Source: a virus
Strand: one strand, 5' to 3'
IMG/VR virus record: IMGVR_UViG_3300030098_003784
Span: 1 to 41,234 of that record
Length of the DNA stretch: 41,234 nt
Each line of letters begins with the position of its first letter. The stretch's first letter is position 1. This document shows positions 2,214 through 18,860 of the stretch, in pieces. The translations under genes and the position numbers were made by a program. The notes beneath the pieces are model-generated. The model was not told the DNA's origin, did not search any database, and saw nothing but the letters and a program-made list of their open reading frames with translations.

Positions 2214-4676
2214 ATGCCTCAAGCCGGATTAATAGAAAAAGAACCTGATGTTTCTAGACAAGTAACATCATTGTTTGAAAAAACTAGAGCGGCATATCTA
2301 TCTGCTAGAGATAATCCTAAAGCATATAGTAATAAATGGATAGATATAATTTCACAAATTAGAAACAAGTACGATGATGAAGGGGATTTAGCAAATACTA
2401 TTGTTGACAATATTAGAGAAAAGGATTTATTTTCTGATGAAATTAAAAATCCTGAATCTAAATTAGCACAAGAATTATACTTAAAAATAAAAGAAATGAG
2501 ATACGGTAAAATTGGCCGTGACCCATTTGTAAAAGAATTTGGTGATAATGTATTAGAGGCACTTATGGAAAATAAGGATGTATTTGCTAAATTTATTCAT
2601 TGGGCTATGCGCTCAGATAAAGAAATTATAACTGGTTGGAAAAGATTTGATGTTGAAGAAGATACTATTACAGCAGGTTACACTGGTTTAGATATGCTAG
2701 AAAAAGATATTACAACTTTTATTATTGAACATTATGGTGATGATAAAGATTCTTCTCGCATAGATGGTAAATATAAAGCCGCTAAAAATATGTTAAAAGA
2801 AGTTTTTTTAATGAGTCAAGATGAAGAAGAATGGAATAGTTTAGTAGACTTAGATATTCAAAAAAGTCAAAAAAAAAGCGCAAATTTTCTAGTCCCGAAT
2901 AAACCAATGTATCGTATTTTTGAATTAGACGATATAGAAGAATTAAGAGGTTTTACAGGAGATTGGTTAGTTCAAGAAAAATATGATGGTATGAGAATAC
3001 AAATTCATAAAATAGATAATAAAATTAAAATTTACTCTTATAATGAAATAGATATTACTGATAAATGTAAAGATATATTAGAGCAATTAAAGAAAAAGCA
3101 TTTTGGAGATTGCATATTAGATGCTGAACTATTGTTGTTTGAAGGTGAAACCCCATTGCATAGAGCAGAAGTTGTTGCTAGAATTTTTAAAGATAAAAAA
3201 GCAGATACTACTTTGAAAGCACATGTCTTTGATATCATGCGCCATGAAGAAAGGGATTTGATAGAAGAACCATTAAGCGAAAGAATCGCAATCTTATTCC
3301 AAAATTATTCAATGCATTCACATGAATTATTAGCATTCCCTTCTAAGAAAGATACTAGAATTGCAGATTCTTTAGAAGATGTTGGTAAGTATGCAAAAGA
3401 TATAATGAAGATACCTACTTCTGAGGGAGTAGTAATTAAAGATATGACTTCAACTTATTTTAGAGGAACTAAGAAAAATCCAAAATGGATTAAATGGAAG
3501 AAGTTTGTAGATTTAGATTTAGTAGTCTTGGATAAAAAATCTACTAAGTCTAATTTATTTTCATACACTTTAGGTGCAGGGCCAGTTGACAAAGGTGTTG
3601 AGATAGATGGTAGATTCTATATGGATGTTGGTAAAGCCCTCAATACAAAAATAGATGTTGATGTTGGTTCTATTGTTAGGGTTAAAGTGGATGAAGTGAA
3701 AAGAAAAGGAGATTCGTATAGGTTATTTTCTGCTAAAGTAATTGAAATACCCGAAGTTGAACAACCTGATAAAGTAATCACTTTAGATATTTTAGCAGAT
3801 AATACTAAAAAATCAGTTAGTTACAAAGCCAAAGCATTAGAAAAATCTATTGTAATTACAGACACTATTCATGGGGATGCAACTATAATTGCTAAATCGG
3901 ACTTTGACGGATATACTATCTTCGGTTTTGAAGAAAATAATCTTATGGCTAAAAACGCCTTACTTGACATAGATATTTGGAAAACACAATTTGAAGAATT
4001 GATGAAAGAAAGAAAAGGTAAGTTAAGAGTTGCAATTAAAAACCATTTATTAGATGAAGGTAGAAAACATATTAATGAGATTCATGAGCATTTGTTAAAA
4101 CATTTTGATTCTTTATATGATGAAGTTTTTGATAAAGATAAATTAAAGTTGGCTAATTATTTGAAAACTCAAGCAGATGATATGAAGCATGTTGGTAATT
4201 ATAAATTTGAAGCAGATGCAAATGTTTTAGAAAAATATGAAACCCCTGAAGAATATAGGAAAGGTGAATATAAAATATATTCTAGAGATGATGGTAATTT
4301 ACAATTTTTAATTCAAGTTGGAGATAAAACATTACCTTGGACAATTAAAATTCAAAACATGGATGATGTCTTTAATTTATTTGGAAAATCTACAAAGTTC
4401 CCTGCAATGGTGGCAGAAAATGTTTCTAAAGAAAAATTAATTGATGAAGGTATTGTAAAATTAGGTGTACAAAGACATGGTTATCATGAATATATATTAG
4501 ATGGTGATAAATTTAAAACAAAATTACATTTTAGAGTAGTGCCTTTAGAAGATGAACCTCGTTGGATTGCTTTTACTAGTATAGAAGATGACCCTGTTGA
4601 CCCTAAAAGTGATGAAGGTATATGGAACATTACCCAAGATAAGAATAATAAATTAAACTTTTTAGGGTTAGATTAG
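2214..4676 (+). CDS. ATP-dependent DNA ligase with long N- and C-terminal extensions
   Basis: The enzyme would seal nicks in DNA through a Lys-AMP intermediate. The nucleotidyltransferase core is clear: motif I EKYDGMR (Lys near residue 255), motif III HVFDIM, motif IV EGVVIKD and motif V KWIKWKK. An OB-fold-like segment ends near residue 540. The protein has 820 aa, against roughly 550-600 for typical archaeal ligases. About 230 residues precede the core, and about 270 residues follow it that match no ligase domain I recognise; that tail ends in a beta-rich, Trp-containing segment. The N-terminal part contains WIDIIS, a loose match to the SW peptide. It is encoded among capsid genes rather than with the minus-strand replication genes. 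ATG 2214 follows AGGTG. Confidence 0.92.
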   Translation: MPQAGLIEKEPDVSRQVTSLFEKTRAAYLSARDNPKAYSNKWIDIISQIRNKYDDEGDLANTIVDNIREKDLFSDEIKNPESKLAQELYLKIKEMRYGKIGRDPFVKEFGDNVLEALMENKDVFAKFIHWAMRSDKEIITGWKRFDVEEDTITAGYTGLDMLEKDITTFIIEHYGDDKDSSRIDGKYKAAKNMLKEVFLMSQDEEEWNSLVDLDIQKSQKKSANFLVPNKPMYRIFELDDIEELRGFTGDWLVQEKYDGMRIQIHKIDNKIKIYSYNEIDITDKCKDILEQLKKKHFGDCILDAELLLFEGETPLHRAEVVARIFKDKKADTTLKAHVFDIMRHEERDLIEEPLSERIAILFQNYSMHSHELLAFPSKKDTRIADSLEDVGKYAKDIMKIPTSEGVVIKDMTSTYFRGTKKNPKWIKWKKFVDLDLVVLDKKSTKSNLFSYTLGAGPVDKGVEIDGRFYMDVGKALNTKIDVDVGSIVRVKVDEVKRKGDSYRLFSAKVIEIPEVEQPDKVITLDILADNTKKSVSYKAKALEKSIVITDTIHGDATIIAKSDFDGYTIFGFEENNLMAKNALLDIDIWKTQFEELMKERKGKLRVAIKNHLLDEGRKHINEIHEHLLKHFDSLYDEVFDKDKLKLANYLKTQADDMKHVGNYKFEADANVLEKYETPEEYRKGEYKIYSRDDGNLQFLIQVGDKTLPWTIKIQNMDDVFNLFGKSTKFPAMVAENVSKEKLIDEGIVKLGVQRHGYHEYILDGDKFKTKLHFRVVPLEDEPRWIAFTSIEDDPVDPKSDEGIWNITQDKNNKLNFLGLD

Positions 4677-9060: not shown

Positions 9061-9726
9061 ATGTCCTTAATGGCGGGGTTTGCAGTTATATGTGCAGATG
9101 CCGCAGTAGGTTTGTATAATCGTTTTCATGCTTTTCCTTTTGGTATTTATGGTGCGGCTAAAGTAGGTAAAACTACTATGCACCATCAATTAAGGACTAG
9201 AGGTGAAGTACCTGAAATAAAGAAAAGAACAGAAGGATTACAAAGGGCTTCAAGAAAAATGGTTAAAATAGATGGTGATGTCAGGACTTTAAAGGCGGCA
9301 GACGTAGGGGGGCAATCACAATATTGGCATGAGTGGGCTAAGGATTTAAAAAACCGTAAAGTTCAGTATGTTATTTTTATGATAGATGATAGGCATTTAG
9401 CCCAAACATACAACTTAGAACATATGTTAGCATGGCAATTTTTAGTTGATTTAATAGTAGATGATTATTGGAGGATGGGAAGAAAATCTAAAAAGAAAAA
9501 GCATTTTCCAAAAGCAGTAGGTATATGGGCAAATAAATATGATGAATGGGGTAAGAAATATGAATACAACGGACCTATCGAGAAACATCCAATTTTTGAA
9601 CCGTTCAGGCATGGAATGCAGAGACTTAACGATAAGGGTATACCAACGTACAAATACATCGTTTCCGCTAAATCGGATTCAGAGATGGTATATAGAGGAA
9701 TTATGACAATGATTAGTGATTATTAG
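9061..9726 (+). CDS. Arf/SR-beta-like small GTPase
   Basis: The 221-aa protein carries the full set of Ras-superfamily signatures in the right order and spacing: G1 GAAKVGKT (31-38), G3 DVGGQ (81-85), G4 NKYD (158-161) and G5 SAK (202-204). A Thr near residue 57 may serve switch I. DxGGQ is typical of Arf and SR-beta relatives. The first 20 residues are hydrophobic (MAGFAVICADAAVGL), reminiscent of the membrane-proximal end of SR-beta. A Lys-rich insert (RKSKKKKH) lies before G4. It should bind and hydrolyse GTP, with a role at a membrane suggested by the two preceding genes. A GTPase of this kind inside a head/neck gene block is unexpected. Confidence 0.85.
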   Translation: MSLMAGFAVICADAAVGLYNRFHAFPFGIYGAAKVGKTTMHHQLRTRGEVPEIKKRTEGLQRASRKMVKIDGDVRTLKAADVGGQSQYWHEWAKDLKNRKVQYVIFMIDDRHLAQTYNLEHMLAWQFLVDLIVDDYWRMGRKSKKKKHFPKAVGIWANKYDEWGKKYEYNGPIEKHPIFEPFRHGMQRLNDKGIPTYKYIVSAKSDSEMVYRGIMTMISDY

Positions 9727-14009: not shown

Positions 14010-15581
14010 ATGGCAATAGAAAACAGCGATATATTTTTAGGAAGTGGGGCAAGTTTAACACTTGTACCGGAAGTGGATTTTTATTTTAAACCCGCAACAA
14101 CAAGTACAACATTAATACAAATGGAAACAACTAATGCAGTTCAATTCCAATTAGTAACTGATATGTATGTTGGTTGTACTCTTGATTGGTATGATAATGG
14201 AGTTTATACCTCCTCACATACTATCACTTCTAATGATAATGACACCTTTACAATAACCCCCGCTACTGGTGCAGCGGTAGTTACTGCTGATGATGAATTT
14301 GTGTTAAGGGCATATGGCGCACCTTGCCCTGCTCCTGATTCTGCTAATGATGGGAGTGGTAGACTTAGACTACATGCTGATAATTGGTTAGGATTAGTTG
14401 AATCTGCAACATTCCCAACTGTTGAAGTTGAGACTAAACAATTAAATTTAGCACTTGGAGGAACAAGAAACTTTACTCATCAATATAAAGGAATAGAAAC
14501 TGCAACTGGTGGTAATATAGGTTTAGTTTGTAACCATGTAACTTGGTTATATTATTTCTTAGGAACATGTACCAATATAAGTTTTGCAAGTGGGACTTCT
14601 ACAAGTCAACACCCAACTAATTATCACACTGGTACTGCGGCACATAAATTATATTTCCACGGAACTAGTGCTACTTCCCATATAGATACAGGCCCATTCA
14701 TTTACAGGGTTAATTCCGTTAGTGGTGGCGACCATATTGTACCACCATTAATGGCAACTGTTGATGATACTGTAGCAGATATAGATAGTATTACTTATCC
14801 AGTAACTGATTCTACTTATGTAAGTTACACATTTGCAGAAGCAAATAATTCTGAATTACCTTCTTTTGCTCTTGAGCAAAGTATGAGTAAGTTAGCAACT
14901 AACCCTCTAAGGACAGATACAGATAATGATGGTCTTGAAGATTTAAACTTTGTAAGGGTTGCTAGAGGTAATAGGGTAAATACATTAACTATGACGGCTA
15001 ATGAAAATGAAGAACTTAAAATGACTATGGATTTGAATACTAGGGCAGTTAATACTCTTGATAAATCACAAACTGCGGGTTATGATTCAAGAGGAGGACA
15101 AGCAACAGATTCAAGTTTATTTAATTTCACTAGTGATGAAGGTCATCTTGAACCATTCTTCTTTTCTGATGGGACTATTGAAATGTATGGAAGTACATTC
15201 TTAAAGATAACTAACTTTTCCTTAACTATGAATAATAACTTAATGGATAAAAGATTTGTTGGTATTGGTAGTAAAAGTGTTAAAGATGGTATACCTGCAC
15301 AAAGAACTTATGAGGTTTCACTAACGGCAATGGTAACAGATGATAAATTATTTACTGAATTATTAAGTTCAAATGAAAATAATGACACTTCACAATCATT
15401 GAAATTATCATTCACAAAGAATACTTCTGAAACATTTACTTTAGAGTTTGATGATTATTTCATGGCTGCTAATAATTGGACTATTCCCGAAGATAAAGGG
15501 CCAATTATGGTTGAAGCAACTTTAATGCCTAGAACATTAACGGCTTGTACGACTACAACTCATTGGATTTTACAAGGGTGA
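14010..15581 (+). CDS. Major tail (tube) protein
   Basis: The 523-aa beta-rich protein lies between the tail completion gene and the tail chaperones, the position of the tail tube protein. AGGTGAAT precedes ATG 14010. The N-terminus (ENSDIFLGSGASLTLVPE) resembles tube proteins. Long Thr/Ser-rich strands dominate, and a segment with LRTDTDNDGLED looks like a calcium-binding loop. The C-terminal third (FLKITNFSLTMNNN, then VSLTAMVTDDKLF) shows the repeated strand pattern of tube folds. It is longer than most tube proteins, so it probably carries extra surface domains. No sheath protein is seen, which favours a siphovirus tail. Confidence 0.72.
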   Translation: MAIENSDIFLGSGASLTLVPEVDFYFKPATTSTTLIQMETTNAVQFQLVTDMYVGCTLDWYDNGVYTSSHTITSNDNDTFTITPATGAAVVTADDEFVLRAYGAPCPAPDSANDGSGRLRLHADNWLGLVESATFPTVEVETKQLNLALGGTRNFTHQYKGIETATGGNIGLVCNHVTWLYYFLGTCTNISFASGTSTSQHPTNYHTGTAAHKLYFHGTSATSHIDTGPFIYRVNSVSGGDHIVPPLMATVDDTVADIDSITYPVTDSTYVSYTFAEANNSELPSFALEQSMSKLATNPLRTDTDNDGLEDLNFVRVARGNRVNTLTMTANENEELKMTMDLNTRAVNTLDKSQTAGYDSRGGQATDSSLFNFTSDEGHLEPFFFSDGTIEMYGSTFLKITNFSLTMNNNLMDKRFVGIGSKSVKDGIPAQRTYEVSLTAMVTDDKLFTELLSSNENNDTSQSLKLSFTKNTSETFTLEFDDYFMAANNWTIPEDKGPIMVEATLMPRTLTACTTTTHWILQG

Positions 15582-15586
15582 TTAAA

Positions 15587-15724
15587 ATGGTTTCATACGG
15601 AGATAGATATAGGGCTAAACAGGCTGAGCGTAAAGAAAAGGCATTAAAAGCACAACAAAGAAAAGAAAGAAGAGGCCGACCTAAAAAAGTAGTAGAAGTA
15701 GTTGAGGCAGATGAAGAAGAGTAA
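15587..15724 (+). CDS. AT-hook microprotein (45 aa)
   Basis: This short gene starts at ATG 15587, eight bases after GGGTGAT begins, and ends at TAA 15724. The first 34 residues are extremely basic. Residues 28-34 (RRGRPKK) are a classic AT-hook, which binds the minor groove of AT-rich DNA. The last ten residues are acidic (EVVEADEEE). The SD, the spacing after the tail tube gene and the overlap with the next gene support it. A role in binding viral DNA is inferred; the motif could also arise by chance in such a basic peptide. Confidence 0.6.
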   Translation: MVSYGDRYRAKQAERKEKALKAQQRKERRGRPKKVVEVVEADEEE

Positions 15725-16559
15725 CTGGTTTGAGATTGTTAAAGCCCCAGTGTGGGCCCAAAATAGGTGGATTGAAACTAAAACAGGTAAGAGAATTTTA
15801 CCTTCTGAATTAAAAACCCAATATAATTTAGATGATGCACAAATTCAACAAATGAAGCAAAGAAGTCCTAGTCAAACTGAATTAAGGGAATTACAAAATG
15901 TAGTTAGTGGTGGAGGACAAGCAACTGGCTTTAGTTCTGCGGGACGTAGACCTATGGGGGACACGTCAGGCACAGCACAACCATTAACTCAACAAGCGCA
16001 ACAACAAAGGCAAGCGCAACAACAAAGGTTTCAACAAGCGCAACAACAAAGGCAAACGCAACAAGGTACTCAAACACAAACCCCATTTAATGTTGGTCAA
16101 TTTTTACAACAAAATACTCCTGCAACTACAACTCCACAATCACAATCTACTCAAGCACAAACTACAACTCCTGCAACTACAACTCAACAAGCGCAAACTG
16201 GTGGTAAAAGCCCACCATTAAGTCAAAGAATCAAAATAGGCGGTAGGATATATGAAGGAGGTCAAACATTACCTGCTGCAACTTGGAATCAATTACAACA
16301 AGAATTCAAAGGAAAACCTACAGACCCTAACGGTATCCCACAAGAGGCTTATTTAAAATATGGGGCGCAAACAGGGGCGGCAACTCCTAAAGTAACCTCT
16401 ACAAAGGGTAAAACTTTAGAAAATATTGGTTTAAATAATCTCTATGAAGAAGCAAAAGCATCAGGTGATTTAACTGCATTTACAAATAAAGTAAATGCAT
16501 TATTAAATAAGAGTGAGGATAGTTTTAGAAAAGTATGGGATAATGTTATCAAAAATTAA
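15711..16559 (+). CDS. Gln-rich low-complexity tail-region protein with SW-like N-terminus
   Basis: The frame opens at TTG 15702; ATG 15711, preceded by TTGAGG, is preferred (282 aa). The N-terminus (MKKSNWFEIVKAPVW) is another variant of the W-x-[DE]-[IV]-[IV]-K peptide. Residues 20-45 look folded, and residues 85-165 are a Gln/Thr-rich tract built from repeated AQQQR and TTTPA units. The C-terminal part has a basic strand-rich segment (RIKIGGRIYEGGQTLPAATW) and a final helix (TNKVNALLNKSEDSFRKVWD). It lies between the tube gene and the tail chaperones. Function is unknown. Confidence 0.72.
   Translation: MKKSNWFEIVKAPVWAQNRWIETKTGKRILPSELKTQYNLDDAQIQQMKQRSPSQTELRELQNVVSGGGQATGFSSAGRRPMGDTSGTAQPLTQQAQQQRQAQQQRFQQAQQQRQTQQGTQTQTPFNVGQFLQQNTPATTTPQSQSTQAQTTTPATTTQQAQTGGKSPPLSQRIKIGGRIYEGGQTLPAATWNQLQQEFKGKPTDPNGIPQEAYLKYGAQTGAATPKVTSTKGKTLENIGLNNLYEEAKASGDLTAFTNKVNALLNKSEDSFRKVWDNVIKN
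15993..16066 (+). repeat. 18-nt direct repeats encoding the Gln-rich tract
   Basis: The 18-base unit CAAGCGCAACAACAAAGG occurs exactly at 15993-16010, 16011-16028 and 16035-16052, followed by a partial copy. It encodes QAQQQR. The copies are identical, so the array is young and likely unstable in length. Confidence 0.85.
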
Positions 16560-16601: not shown

Positions 16602-16970
16602 ATGTTGGAAAAAAAAATAGTAAATAACACATCAGCATTATTTATAAATAATAATGCGAAAGAGCATTATATTCGAGTCTCACCAGATTCGGATGAATAT
16701 CTGAAAGTTTGGGTTAAACAACCTACTTGGTTACAAGTAGAAAAGGCAATGACTACATTGATGAAGATTGACCCTAAAACTCAAACGATGGATATAGATA
16801 TGAATGCCATGTATAGATACATGGTTGATAATTTTATAGAGAAAACTGAACCCAGTTTATCTACAGTAGATTTAATCAAATTAACGCCTTATGTTGGGGC
16901 ACAATTAAAAGAGGTACTTCCTAATCCTTTGGAAGATATGATGCAGGGGGATGAGGAAAAAAACGAATGA
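16602..16970 (+). CDS. Tail assembly chaperone, gpG-like (upstream part)
   Basis: The 122-aa product starts at ATG 16602 behind AGGTGG (an in-frame ATG at 16578 lacks an SD). Its order before the tape measure gene and its small size fit gpG-type tail chaperones, which coat the tape measure during tail assembly. The N-terminal half is strand-rich (HYIRVSPDSDEYLKVWVKQPTW), and the C-terminal half is helical. The last codons contain the slippery A AAA AAC (16958-16964), where a -1 shift would fuse the protein to the next frame. The unshifted product ends in EEKNE. Confidence 0.78.
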   Translation: MLEKKIVNNTSALFINNNAKEHYIRVSPDSDEYLKVWVKQPTWLQVEKAMTTLMKIDPKTQTMDIDMNAMYRYMVDNFIEKTEPSLSTVDLIKLTPYVGAQLKEVLPNPLEDMMQGDEEKNE

Positions 16971-17015
16971 TACGAAAAGTAGTAAGAGGTCAATCATCTG
17001 ACACCTACTTTTCGT
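16958..17015 (+). other. Programmed -1 ribosomal frameshift signal
   Basis: The heptamer A AAA AAC at 16958-16964 is in the correct phase of the gpG-like frame. A 7-base spacer (16965-16971) follows. Then comes a perfect 11-bp stem: ACGAAAAGTAG at 16972-16982 with CTACTTTTCGT at 17005-17015. The 22-base loop region contains a further GTCA/TGAC pairing (16989-16992 with 16999-17002). After slippage the ribosome reads CGA ATG ATA and enters the open frame that ends at 17167, skipping the zero-frame TGA at 16968. All three elements of a classical signal are present. Confidence 0.88.
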
Positions 17016-17167
17016 CACTCTTGGTAGTATATTCATTAGCGAGGGCCTTTTCCATTAGTCCAATGGAAGTCTATGCGATGCCATCAGATTTAGTTTTATC
17101 AATGTTACAAATACATGGGGAAGTAGAATTATATAAAGCAGAAGAAATGAAAAAAGGAATGAAGTGA
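16967..17167 (+). CDS. Tail assembly chaperone, gpT-like frameshift extension
   Basis: The 66-codon frame lies between the gpG-like gene and the tape measure and overlaps the former by four bases. It is helical (LLVVYSLARAFSISPMEVYAMPSDLVLSMLQIHGEVELYKAEEMKK), resembling the C-terminal part of fused gpGT chaperones. It can be made as a fusion through the -1 signal at 16958. Its own ATG at 16967 has only a weak SD (GAGG, nine or more bases away), so the fused form is probably the main product, of about 187 aa. Confidence 0.75.
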   Translation: MIRKVVRGQSSDTYFSSLLVVYSLARAFSISPMEVYAMPSDLVLSMLQIHGEVELYKAEEMKKGMK

Positions 17168-17171
17168 TATT

Positions 17172-18860
17172 ATGGCCGATGAAATGCAAAAGACAGTTAA
17201 TACTTTTTCTAAATTGCATGAGGCCATGATGCAAACAAACCAAGATGCTAATGGTTTAGTTAAAAGATTCTCAGATGCAAGTAGTGCAAGTAATAAACTT
17301 TGGACTACAATGAGTAGGCTTACTATTGGTATGGGTTTTAGAGGATTTTGGAGATTTCAAAGCCTAATTCGTTCTGTTGGTAATGTATTTGAATTGTGGT
17401 ATGACCACGGTGAAAATATACTTAAACAAGAAAAAGAAATGATGGATAACACATTAGGTTTATATAATGCTTATGAAAAAATCCAAGATGTAAAAAATAA
17501 TATTGCTAAAACTGATGATGATGCTTTTAAAATGATGAGACTGATGATGGGAGAAGATAAGGCTAGGGCTAAATTAAAAGAAACTGTTGCTAGGGCAGAA
17601 GAAGTTAATGCTAAAAAATTGGCTAGGGCTTTAGGGATGAGTCGTAAAGATGTTAGAAAGAGGTTAGGCACGAAAATTTTTGGTAAGCAAATTACAGGGG
17701 AACAAGACCCTGAAACAAGAGAAAAATTAGAAGGGTTGAAAAAAGTTTTACCTAGAAATTTTGGAGTATTTCAACCAATTTTTAATTTTGCTAAAATAGG
17801 ATTTAGAACTTTTAAAGCAATACCTAAAAAATTATGGAAAGGTGCCACTGGTTTAATAAAATTATCTACGGGGTTATTTAGAAAATTGTTAATTTTTACT
17901 GTTCAATTTATGATGTATTTTGTAGGAATTATGCTACTCTTATTTGCACTTAGAAAACCATTAATGGCCGGATTTAATTATCTTAAAGGGTTATATGAAA
18001 AATGGCCTGAAATTAAAGAAAATTTAATGACAGTTTTAGAACCAGTATGGAATGCTGTTAAAGGTTTTTGGGATGCGACAATGGGAGTATTTAATACTTT
18101 ATTTGACCCTAATGCTACAATAGGAGATATGTTAAGGTCTTTAGGTGTTTTTGTAGTTAAAGGTTTAAAAATAGTATGGGAAATAGGTAAAGTATACTTT
18201 ACTAAATTTTTACCATTACTAATAAGTAGTGTTATTAAATTTGGAAAAGTACTTTGGTCGTACTTTAGAAATGTTGATTGGGTTGGTAAAGCAAAAGAAG
18301 CAGGTGCGGCAGTTAAAGATATGCTTATTCAATATTGGAATAATAATTTAAAACCGTGGTTACTATCTAAAGGTCTTGAGCCAATTGCTAATGGTATTGA
18401 AAGGGCAGTAAAATGGCTTAAAGATACATGGGTGAAAGTTGAACCATATATTACTAAATTCGTTATTTTCTATAAAGATGCATATGCTTGGTTATTTAAT
18501 ATATACACTACAGTAATTGTACCAATGATAATAGACAAAATAAAATCATTATATACTATTATTAAAAATTTCACTGAGGATTTAGGTTTCAGTTTTATGG
18601 CTAAAGGAGGTACTGTTAATTCTAGTGGTAATTTTATAGTTGGGGAGTTAGGGCCTGAAATGGTAACTCTCCCTGCGGGGGCTAAAGTAACACCTAATCA
18701 TAAATTAGGTTTAACAAATAATGCTAGTGTGAATAATATTACAGTTAATGTTAATGGTAGAGTTGGAGCATCTGACCAAGAGTTAAGAGATATAGCAAAG
18801 AAAATAGGTTTTATGTTAAATAGGGAAATAAATAGAGCAACAGCAATGGGAGTGAGATAA
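17172..18860 (+). CDS. Tape measure protein
   Basis: The 562-aa product follows the chaperone pair, as in siphoviruses. GTGAT precedes ATG 17172. The N-terminal half is helical and Lys-rich. A strongly hydrophobic stretch lies near residues 237-260 (FMMYFVGIMLLLFAL). Several amphipathic Trp-rich helices follow. The C-terminus has the characteristic tape-measure ending: a Gly-rich segment (AKGGTVNSSGNFIVGE), then GPEMVTLPAGAKVTP, then Asn/Val repeats. At about 1.5 angstrom per residue, a family rule of thumb, it implies a fairly short tail of roughly 85 nm. It overlaps the next gene by one base (TAATG). Confidence 0.85.
   Translation: MADEMQKTVNTFSKLHEAMMQTNQDANGLVKRFSDASSASNKLWTTMSRLTIGMGFRGFWRFQSLIRSVGNVFELWYDHGENILKQEKEMMDNTLGLYNAYEKIQDVKNNIAKTDDDAFKMMRLMMGEDKARAKLKETVARAEEVNAKKLARALGMSRKDVRKRLGTKIFGKQITGEQDPETREKLEGLKKVLPRNFGVFQPIFNFAKIGFRTFKAIPKKLWKGATGLIKLSTGLFRKLLIFTVQFMMYFVGIMLLLFALRKPLMAGFNYLKGLYEKWPEIKENLMTVLEPVWNAVKGFWDATMGVFNTLFDPNATIGDMLRSLGVFVVKGLKIVWEIGKVYFTKFLPLLISSVIKFGKVLWSYFRNVDWVGKAKEAGAAVKDMLIQYWNNNLKPWLLSKGLEPIANGIERAVKWLKDTWVKVEPYITKFVIFYKDAYAWLFNIYTTVIVPMIIDKIKSLYTIIKNFTEDLGFSFMAKGGTVNSSGNFIVGELGPEMVTLPAGAKVTPNHKLGLTNNASVNNITVNVNGRVGASDQELRDIAKKIGFMLNREINRATAMGVR

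Follow-up and report, generated by a model that had tools for sequence, protein, structure and literature searches.

We found that a marine archaeal virus very probably uses programmed -1 ribosomal frameshifting to make two proteins, a tail assembly chaperone (G) and a longer G-T fusion, ahead of its tape measure gene (probability roughly 0.93). The evidence comes from comparison of sequences and comprises the anatomy of the locus; the conservation of a slippery heptamer, of the reading frame, of a Shine-Dalgarno (SD)-like element, and of T; an excess of RNA structure; and covariation. The DNA analyzed, hereafter the window, is a stretch of 41,234 nt covering positions 1 to 41,234 of IMG/VR record IMGVR_UViG_3300030098_003784.

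All elements of the locus lie on the plus strand. Gene G (16602..16970; 122 amino acids [aa]) occupies the zero frame, which ends as GAA AAA AAC GAA TGA, with the stop codon at 16968 to 16970. Just before this stop, and in phase, lies the slippery heptamer A_AAA_AAC (16958..16964), followed by a 7-nt spacer (16965..16971) and a stimulatory stem of 11 perfectly paired bp, whose 5' arm (acgaaaagtag; 16972..16982) and 3' arm (ctacttttcgt; 17005..17015) enclose a loop of 22 nt. Upstream, an SD-like AGGGGG (16945..16950) ends 7 nt before the heptamer. The T extension (16964..17167) consists of 67 codons and a TGA in the -1 frame, which is open from just after a TGA immediately upstream of the heptamer (16952..16954) as far as the TGA at 17165 to 17167. 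Because that upstream TGA closes the -1 frame, the two frames can be joined only within a 16-nt stretch that bears the heptamer. A preliminary description of this DNA had listed the heptamer in phase, the 7-base spacer, the perfect 11-bp stem, and a -1 frame open to 17167, and all of these coordinates check. It had also given the fusion junction as K-N-R-M-I-R; the junction may be either K-N-R, as proposed, or K-K-R, depending on the moment of the slip. We consider ATG 16602 the likelier start of G, since GGTGG precedes it and since it agrees with the starts of relatives; the open reading frame (ORF) from 16578 is a mechanical call. The predicted length of the G-T fusion is about 188 aa.

In the mechanism that we infer, including the slippage itself, its rate, and the role of each stimulator, the majority of ribosomes would terminate at TGA 16968, releasing chaperone G. 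In the minority, the hairpin ahead (16972 to 17015) would slow the ribosome, and the SD-like AGGGGG (16945 to 16950), paired with 16S rRNA, would restrain it from behind. On A_AAA_AAC, both tRNAs would slip back by one base, and the slipped ribosomes would continue through T to 17167, yielding the G-T fusion. By analogy with phage lambda, G and G-T would cover the tape measure protein and recruit tail tube subunits to it.

Several lines of evidence support the identification of G as a tail assembly chaperone. G matched PHROG 25860 (tail assembly chaperone; E = 1.8e-6), as did 65 of 71 relatives. Its predicted fold (pLDDT 85) was similar in Foldseek to the tail assembly chaperone of HHTV-2 (E = 1.5e-7, TM = 0.71), with further matches to chaperones of Bacillus phages and, weakly, to FS-gp41 of Mu. 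Comparison with gp40 of HCTV-2 by hhalign gave 95.1% (E = 3.1e-8), and the alignment reached down to the KN end. A PDB fold search with G returned nothing significant, and tblastn with G against the phage collection gave no credible match. Furthermore, G and T are two ORFs placed between a tail tube gene and a tape measure gene. The former (14010..15581) matched PHROG 290 (E = 2e-13), Pfam Phage_tube_2, and the tail tube of HHTV-2 (E = 8e-8); the latter (17172..18860; 562 aa) starts 5 nt past the T stop and matched tape measure families in PHROG (E = 1.8e-4 and 1.4e-3). The PHROG match, the predicted fold, the alignment to HCTV-2 gp40, and the gene order thus agree with the preliminary assignment of these frames to a tail chaperone, the function that we deduce for G.

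The window DNA was also said to come from an archaeal virus, and sequence matches support this. All 11 matches to its capsid protein in a phage collection of 50,697 records were archaeal viruses, including HVTV-1, HCTV-1/5, and viruses of Methanomassiliicoccales and Methanofastidiosa. In addition, the ERCC4-type nuclease of the window matched a virus of Methanobacteriales. The literature on magroviruses describes a more distant relation to Druskaviridae, an ATP-dependent ligase, and a genome map that shows a tail assembly chaperone (TAC; PMC10768690), a description that the window virus appears to fit. The ATP-dependent DNA ligase gene of the window (2214-4676, plus strand; 820 aa) stands on the structural strand, immediately upstream of the genes for the prohead protease and the capsid. 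A scan of genomes for a host returned just one short contig binned under Maricaulis and one false match. The former, a 10.5-kb contig in a Maricaulis metagenome-assembled genome (MAG; NZMJ01000011.1, our locus L162), carries a G of this family with the heptamer G_GGA_AAC and is probably an archaeal virus contig that was mis-binned.

How readily could such a locus arise by chance? The genome is A+T-rich, and the window holds 17 in-phase heptamers of this class (AAAAAA followed by A, C, or G, or GGGAAAN) in 12,667 codons, so an A-run and an inverted repeat might simply have come to lie beside a gene overlap without any function. However, no perfect stem in the window is longer than this 11-bp stem, and no other reaches 11 bp in the 41 kb (loops of 3 to 40 nt). 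When T was recoded synonymously, a perfect stem of this length or longer appeared in the right place in 2 of 5,000 trials (0.04%; P = 0.0004). The folding energy of the window was borderline relative to synonymous recodings (z = -1.82, P = 0.055) because the stem is A+T-rich. The comparative data that follow, with conservation over 138 divergent loci and a fixed codon choice, already contradict a functionless coincidence, to which we give almost no weight.

To place the signal among relatives, we drew on IMG/VR contigs. The tape measure protein as bait retrieved no relatives in IMG/VR, so capsid and G were used as baits instead. Two baits and then two more yielded 139 distinct loci that seemed to carry a G, representing the best 80 per search of roughly 374 relatives. 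One locus (L163) was left out as a non-relative, leaving 138 distinct loci with the window included. A canonical heptamer stood in phase shortly before the G stop in every one of the 138, which bears out the conservation that the preliminary description had proposed to test in relatives. Two types occurred at the homologous place, A_AAA_AAN (107 loci) and G_GGA_AAN (31 loci). T was in the -1 frame in 126 of the 138 loci and open to a stop about 180 to 230 nt onward; in 109 of these 126, a stop of the -1 frame began 6 nt before the heptamer. T was conserved as a protein, with a core of ISPLEVY..P. Codon choice at the heptamer was nearly invariant: the Asn codon was AAC in 99 of 100 cases (background, 27.5%), the GGA codon was present in 31/31 (background, 23%), and the middle codon was AAA in 107/107 (background, 73%).

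These counts also bear on whether RNA polymerase, rather than the ribosome, slips on the A-run and yields mRNAs that carry an additional A. In favor of such slippage, 7 consecutive A stand in the window, and runs of 7 or 8 occur in 88 of the 138 loci. However, 31 of the 138 loci carry G_GGA_AAN with only 3 to 4 consecutive A, another 19 have only 6, and the GGGAAAN and AAAAAAN types share the homologous place. The heptamer moreover ends in C, in phase, in 99 cases, and the hairpin and SD-like elements suit slippage by ribosomes. We therefore regard polymerase slippage as highly improbable.

Ribosomal frameshifting also has to be weighed against translational coupling, in which T would be made as a separate protein by ribosomes that restart at ATG 16967 after terminating at TGA 16968, with the heptamer being incidental. 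In the window, this start codon does overlap the G stop (ATGA), a GAGG sits 10 nt upstream of it, and the same overlap is found in 26 of the 126 relatives of the -1 class. In the other 100, however, the overlap is missing. Within 8 codons of the slip site, 41 of 65 loci lack an ATG and 25 of 65 lack any of ATG, GTG, and TTG, and the frame is still open through the heptamer. Coupling has no need of a fixed synonymous choice at the heptamer or at the SD-like element, and the end of that element is separated from the ATG by 16 nt, a distance beyond the range of normal initiation. Coupling is consequently unlikely as the source of T, if somewhat less so than polymerase slippage, and -1 frameshifting on the heptamer remains by far the better account.

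The preliminary description had called the signal bipartite. Heptamer and stem are indeed present, but a third element was missed. In 126 of the 138 loci, whatever the heptamer type, exactly 7 nt separate the heptamer from the end of an SD-like 5-mer upstream (GGAGG, GGGGG, or similar). The element takes the form AGGAGG/GGGGG, and the codons that spell it are nearly fixed for G endings. Specifically, Gly at codon -4 was GGG in 56 of 60 cases (background, 16%), Glu at codon -4 was GAG in 75 of 77 (background, 19%), and Gln at codon -5 was CAG in 75 of 76 (background, 20%). This pattern indicates that the element is kept through codon choice and not through the protein. The window virus seems to use SD pairing, since GGTGA or GGAGG precedes the start codons of many of its genes, and the element may act on archaeal ribosomes. 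SD-like stimulators of bacterial -1 frameshifting work at a distance of 9 to 14 nt from the shift site (PMC5009743); in the window family, the heptamer begins after a gap of 7 nt and its last codon after one of 11 nt. On sequence grounds, the signal is tripartite (SD-like element, heptamer, and stem) and resembles that of Escherichia coli dnaX.

Downstream of the heptamer, most relatives, when folded singly, formed a hairpin of about 50 nt that started 4 to 8 nt 3' of it. Relative to synonymous recodings, RNA in this region was more structured than expected (mean z = -2.35, 65 loci), versus a mean of +0.11 for the next stretch of T, which served as a control. An Rfam search gave zero matches. 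RNAalifold found no single consensus structure over all 62 relatives, so we derived a consensus stem from the single folds and counted its pairs. Covariation was scored on a nearly gap-free alignment (A2), in which columns 16-25 pair with columns 59-68. In this alignment, 71.6% of the consensus stem cells were paired, compared with 62.1 ± 1.0% after shuffling and 41 to 54% when the stem was slid, and both sides had changed in 86 cells, compared with 37 ± 5 in shuffles. The number of stem pairs in A2 showing any double change was no higher than in the shuffles. In the window itself, only 4 of the 10 pairs of the consensus are present, and the stem that it forms lies in a register shifted by 5 columns, which recurs in a neighboring locus (L088). 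It follows that the hairpin is conserved as such and its exact pairs are not. The expectation of a conserved, covarying stem therefore holds for the relatives overall, but not for the register of the window, and it fails in a subclade with the GGGAAAC heptamer (L050, L056, L063, L065, L067, L074, L081, and kin). These loci lack the hairpin, and within 80 to 160 nt no nested structure common to them took its place, making the stem a common rather than a universal stimulator. The subclade keeps the heptamer and the SD-like element, and in the members tested, downstream structure was if anything below that of recodings (z = +0.3 to +1.9); possibly the hairpin is selected against there.

A stop codon between the slip site and T in relatives had been named as an observation that would speak against frameshifting. 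None occurs in 126 of the 138 loci. The remaining 12 distinct sequences (L096, L127, L138, L147, L175, L194, L195, L197, L198, L201, L242, and L243) do have a stop early in the -1 frame, since their T is encoded in the -2/+1 frame. At the end of gene G, they read A_AAA_AAG followed by one base less. The SD-like element and hairpin were retained in those loci examined, and the base before the heptamer was A in 12/12, which is what complete re-pairing following a -2 slip would require. The 12 loci derive from different samples. In the tree, they form two groups, each beside -1 relatives, so two origins or recombination are possible. Slippage by +1 or during transcription is a possible alternative to a -2 slip in these loci. 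We tentatively propose, at a little short of even odds, that the signal is tripartite with an SD-like stretch that stimulates archaeal ribosomes and that at least one lineage uses the homologous signal for a -2 (or +1) shift. If true, the shift at one homologous signal would have altered in size or direction.

Among known systems, lambda has a bacterial host and a heptamer different from the A_AAA_AAC of the window. The likeness lies in the logic, as lambda makes a short chaperone G and a longer -1 fusion, G-T, just before its tape measure gene (PMC5009743). The dnaX gene of E. coli shares an SD-like stimulator, an A-rich heptamer, and a 3' stem of about 11 bp (PMC5009743), but it is another gene with another purpose. 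Closer to the window is gp40/gp41 of the haloarchaeal virus HCTV-2 (Saparoviridae), where G is homologous, A_AAA_AAC likewise stands directly before the G stop, and a joined coding sequence (CDS; a frameshifted fusion) is annotated between tail tube and tape measure; its -1 frameshift is named in a review (PMC5009743). Unlike the window family, HCTV-2 has no SD-like 5-mer upstream in an identical scan, its host is hypersaline, and it is represented by single genomes only. HVTV-1 and HCTV-5 (Druskaviridae) have a related capsid protein, a joined CDS for the chaperone ahead of the tape measure gene, and GGAGG 10 nt upstream, whereas their heptamer is G_GGA_AAG, it begins 37 nt upstream of where the stop ends, and their G is only weakly similar (hhalign, 40%).

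According to reviews, frameshifting was proposed in 2013 for HVTV-1 and HCTV-1/2/5. Reviews rate the haloarchaeal virus frameshifts as likely or putative and describe only one archaeal -1 frameshift as demonstrated, that of a Saccharolobus fucosidase. The signal singled out as notable for an archaeal virus is real, but its novelty is reduced, given that the mechanism had been proposed for haloarchaeal viruses and that a homologue with A_AAA_AAC exists in HCTV-2. Frameshifting by -1 in tail chaperones is already known among tailed viruses, and the window adds a very well supported case. In the literature searched, which covered subscription journals in part, we found no report of frameshifting in magroviruses or Aoguangviridae. 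What could be novel is the SD-like element and the lineage with the switched frame. Within an abundant group of marine viruses, our set provides numerous naturally occurring versions of a single signal. Evolution has retained the heptamer, the SD-like element, and the distance between them, while letting go of the exact stem and sometimes of any stem. The natural pairs of -1 and -2/+1 loci are suited to asking how archaeal ribosomes slip.

Two other genes of the window deserve mention. Between the tube and chaperone genes lies a gene for a 285-aa, Q/T-rich, low-complexity protein (15702-16559, plus strand), which had no relatives among the fetched loci. Within the head-tail module, a 221-aa protein (9061-9726, plus strand) resembles Ras/Arf-like small GTPases. 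It had zero matches among the 50,697 phage records, and we found no literature linking magroviruses with a GTPase. Pfam matches to Roc/Ras/Arf were below cutoffs (E = 0.002 to 0.005), and the predicted fold, of moderate quality (pLDDT 66), was similar to Rab, Arl, and Rag GTPases (E of about 1e-5 to 1e-4). The protein has an N-terminal helix and the motifs G1 (GAAKVGKT), G3 (DVGGQ), G4 (NKYD), and G5 (SAK), and it is present in 66 loci of the set, with G1 in all of them and G4 in 64.
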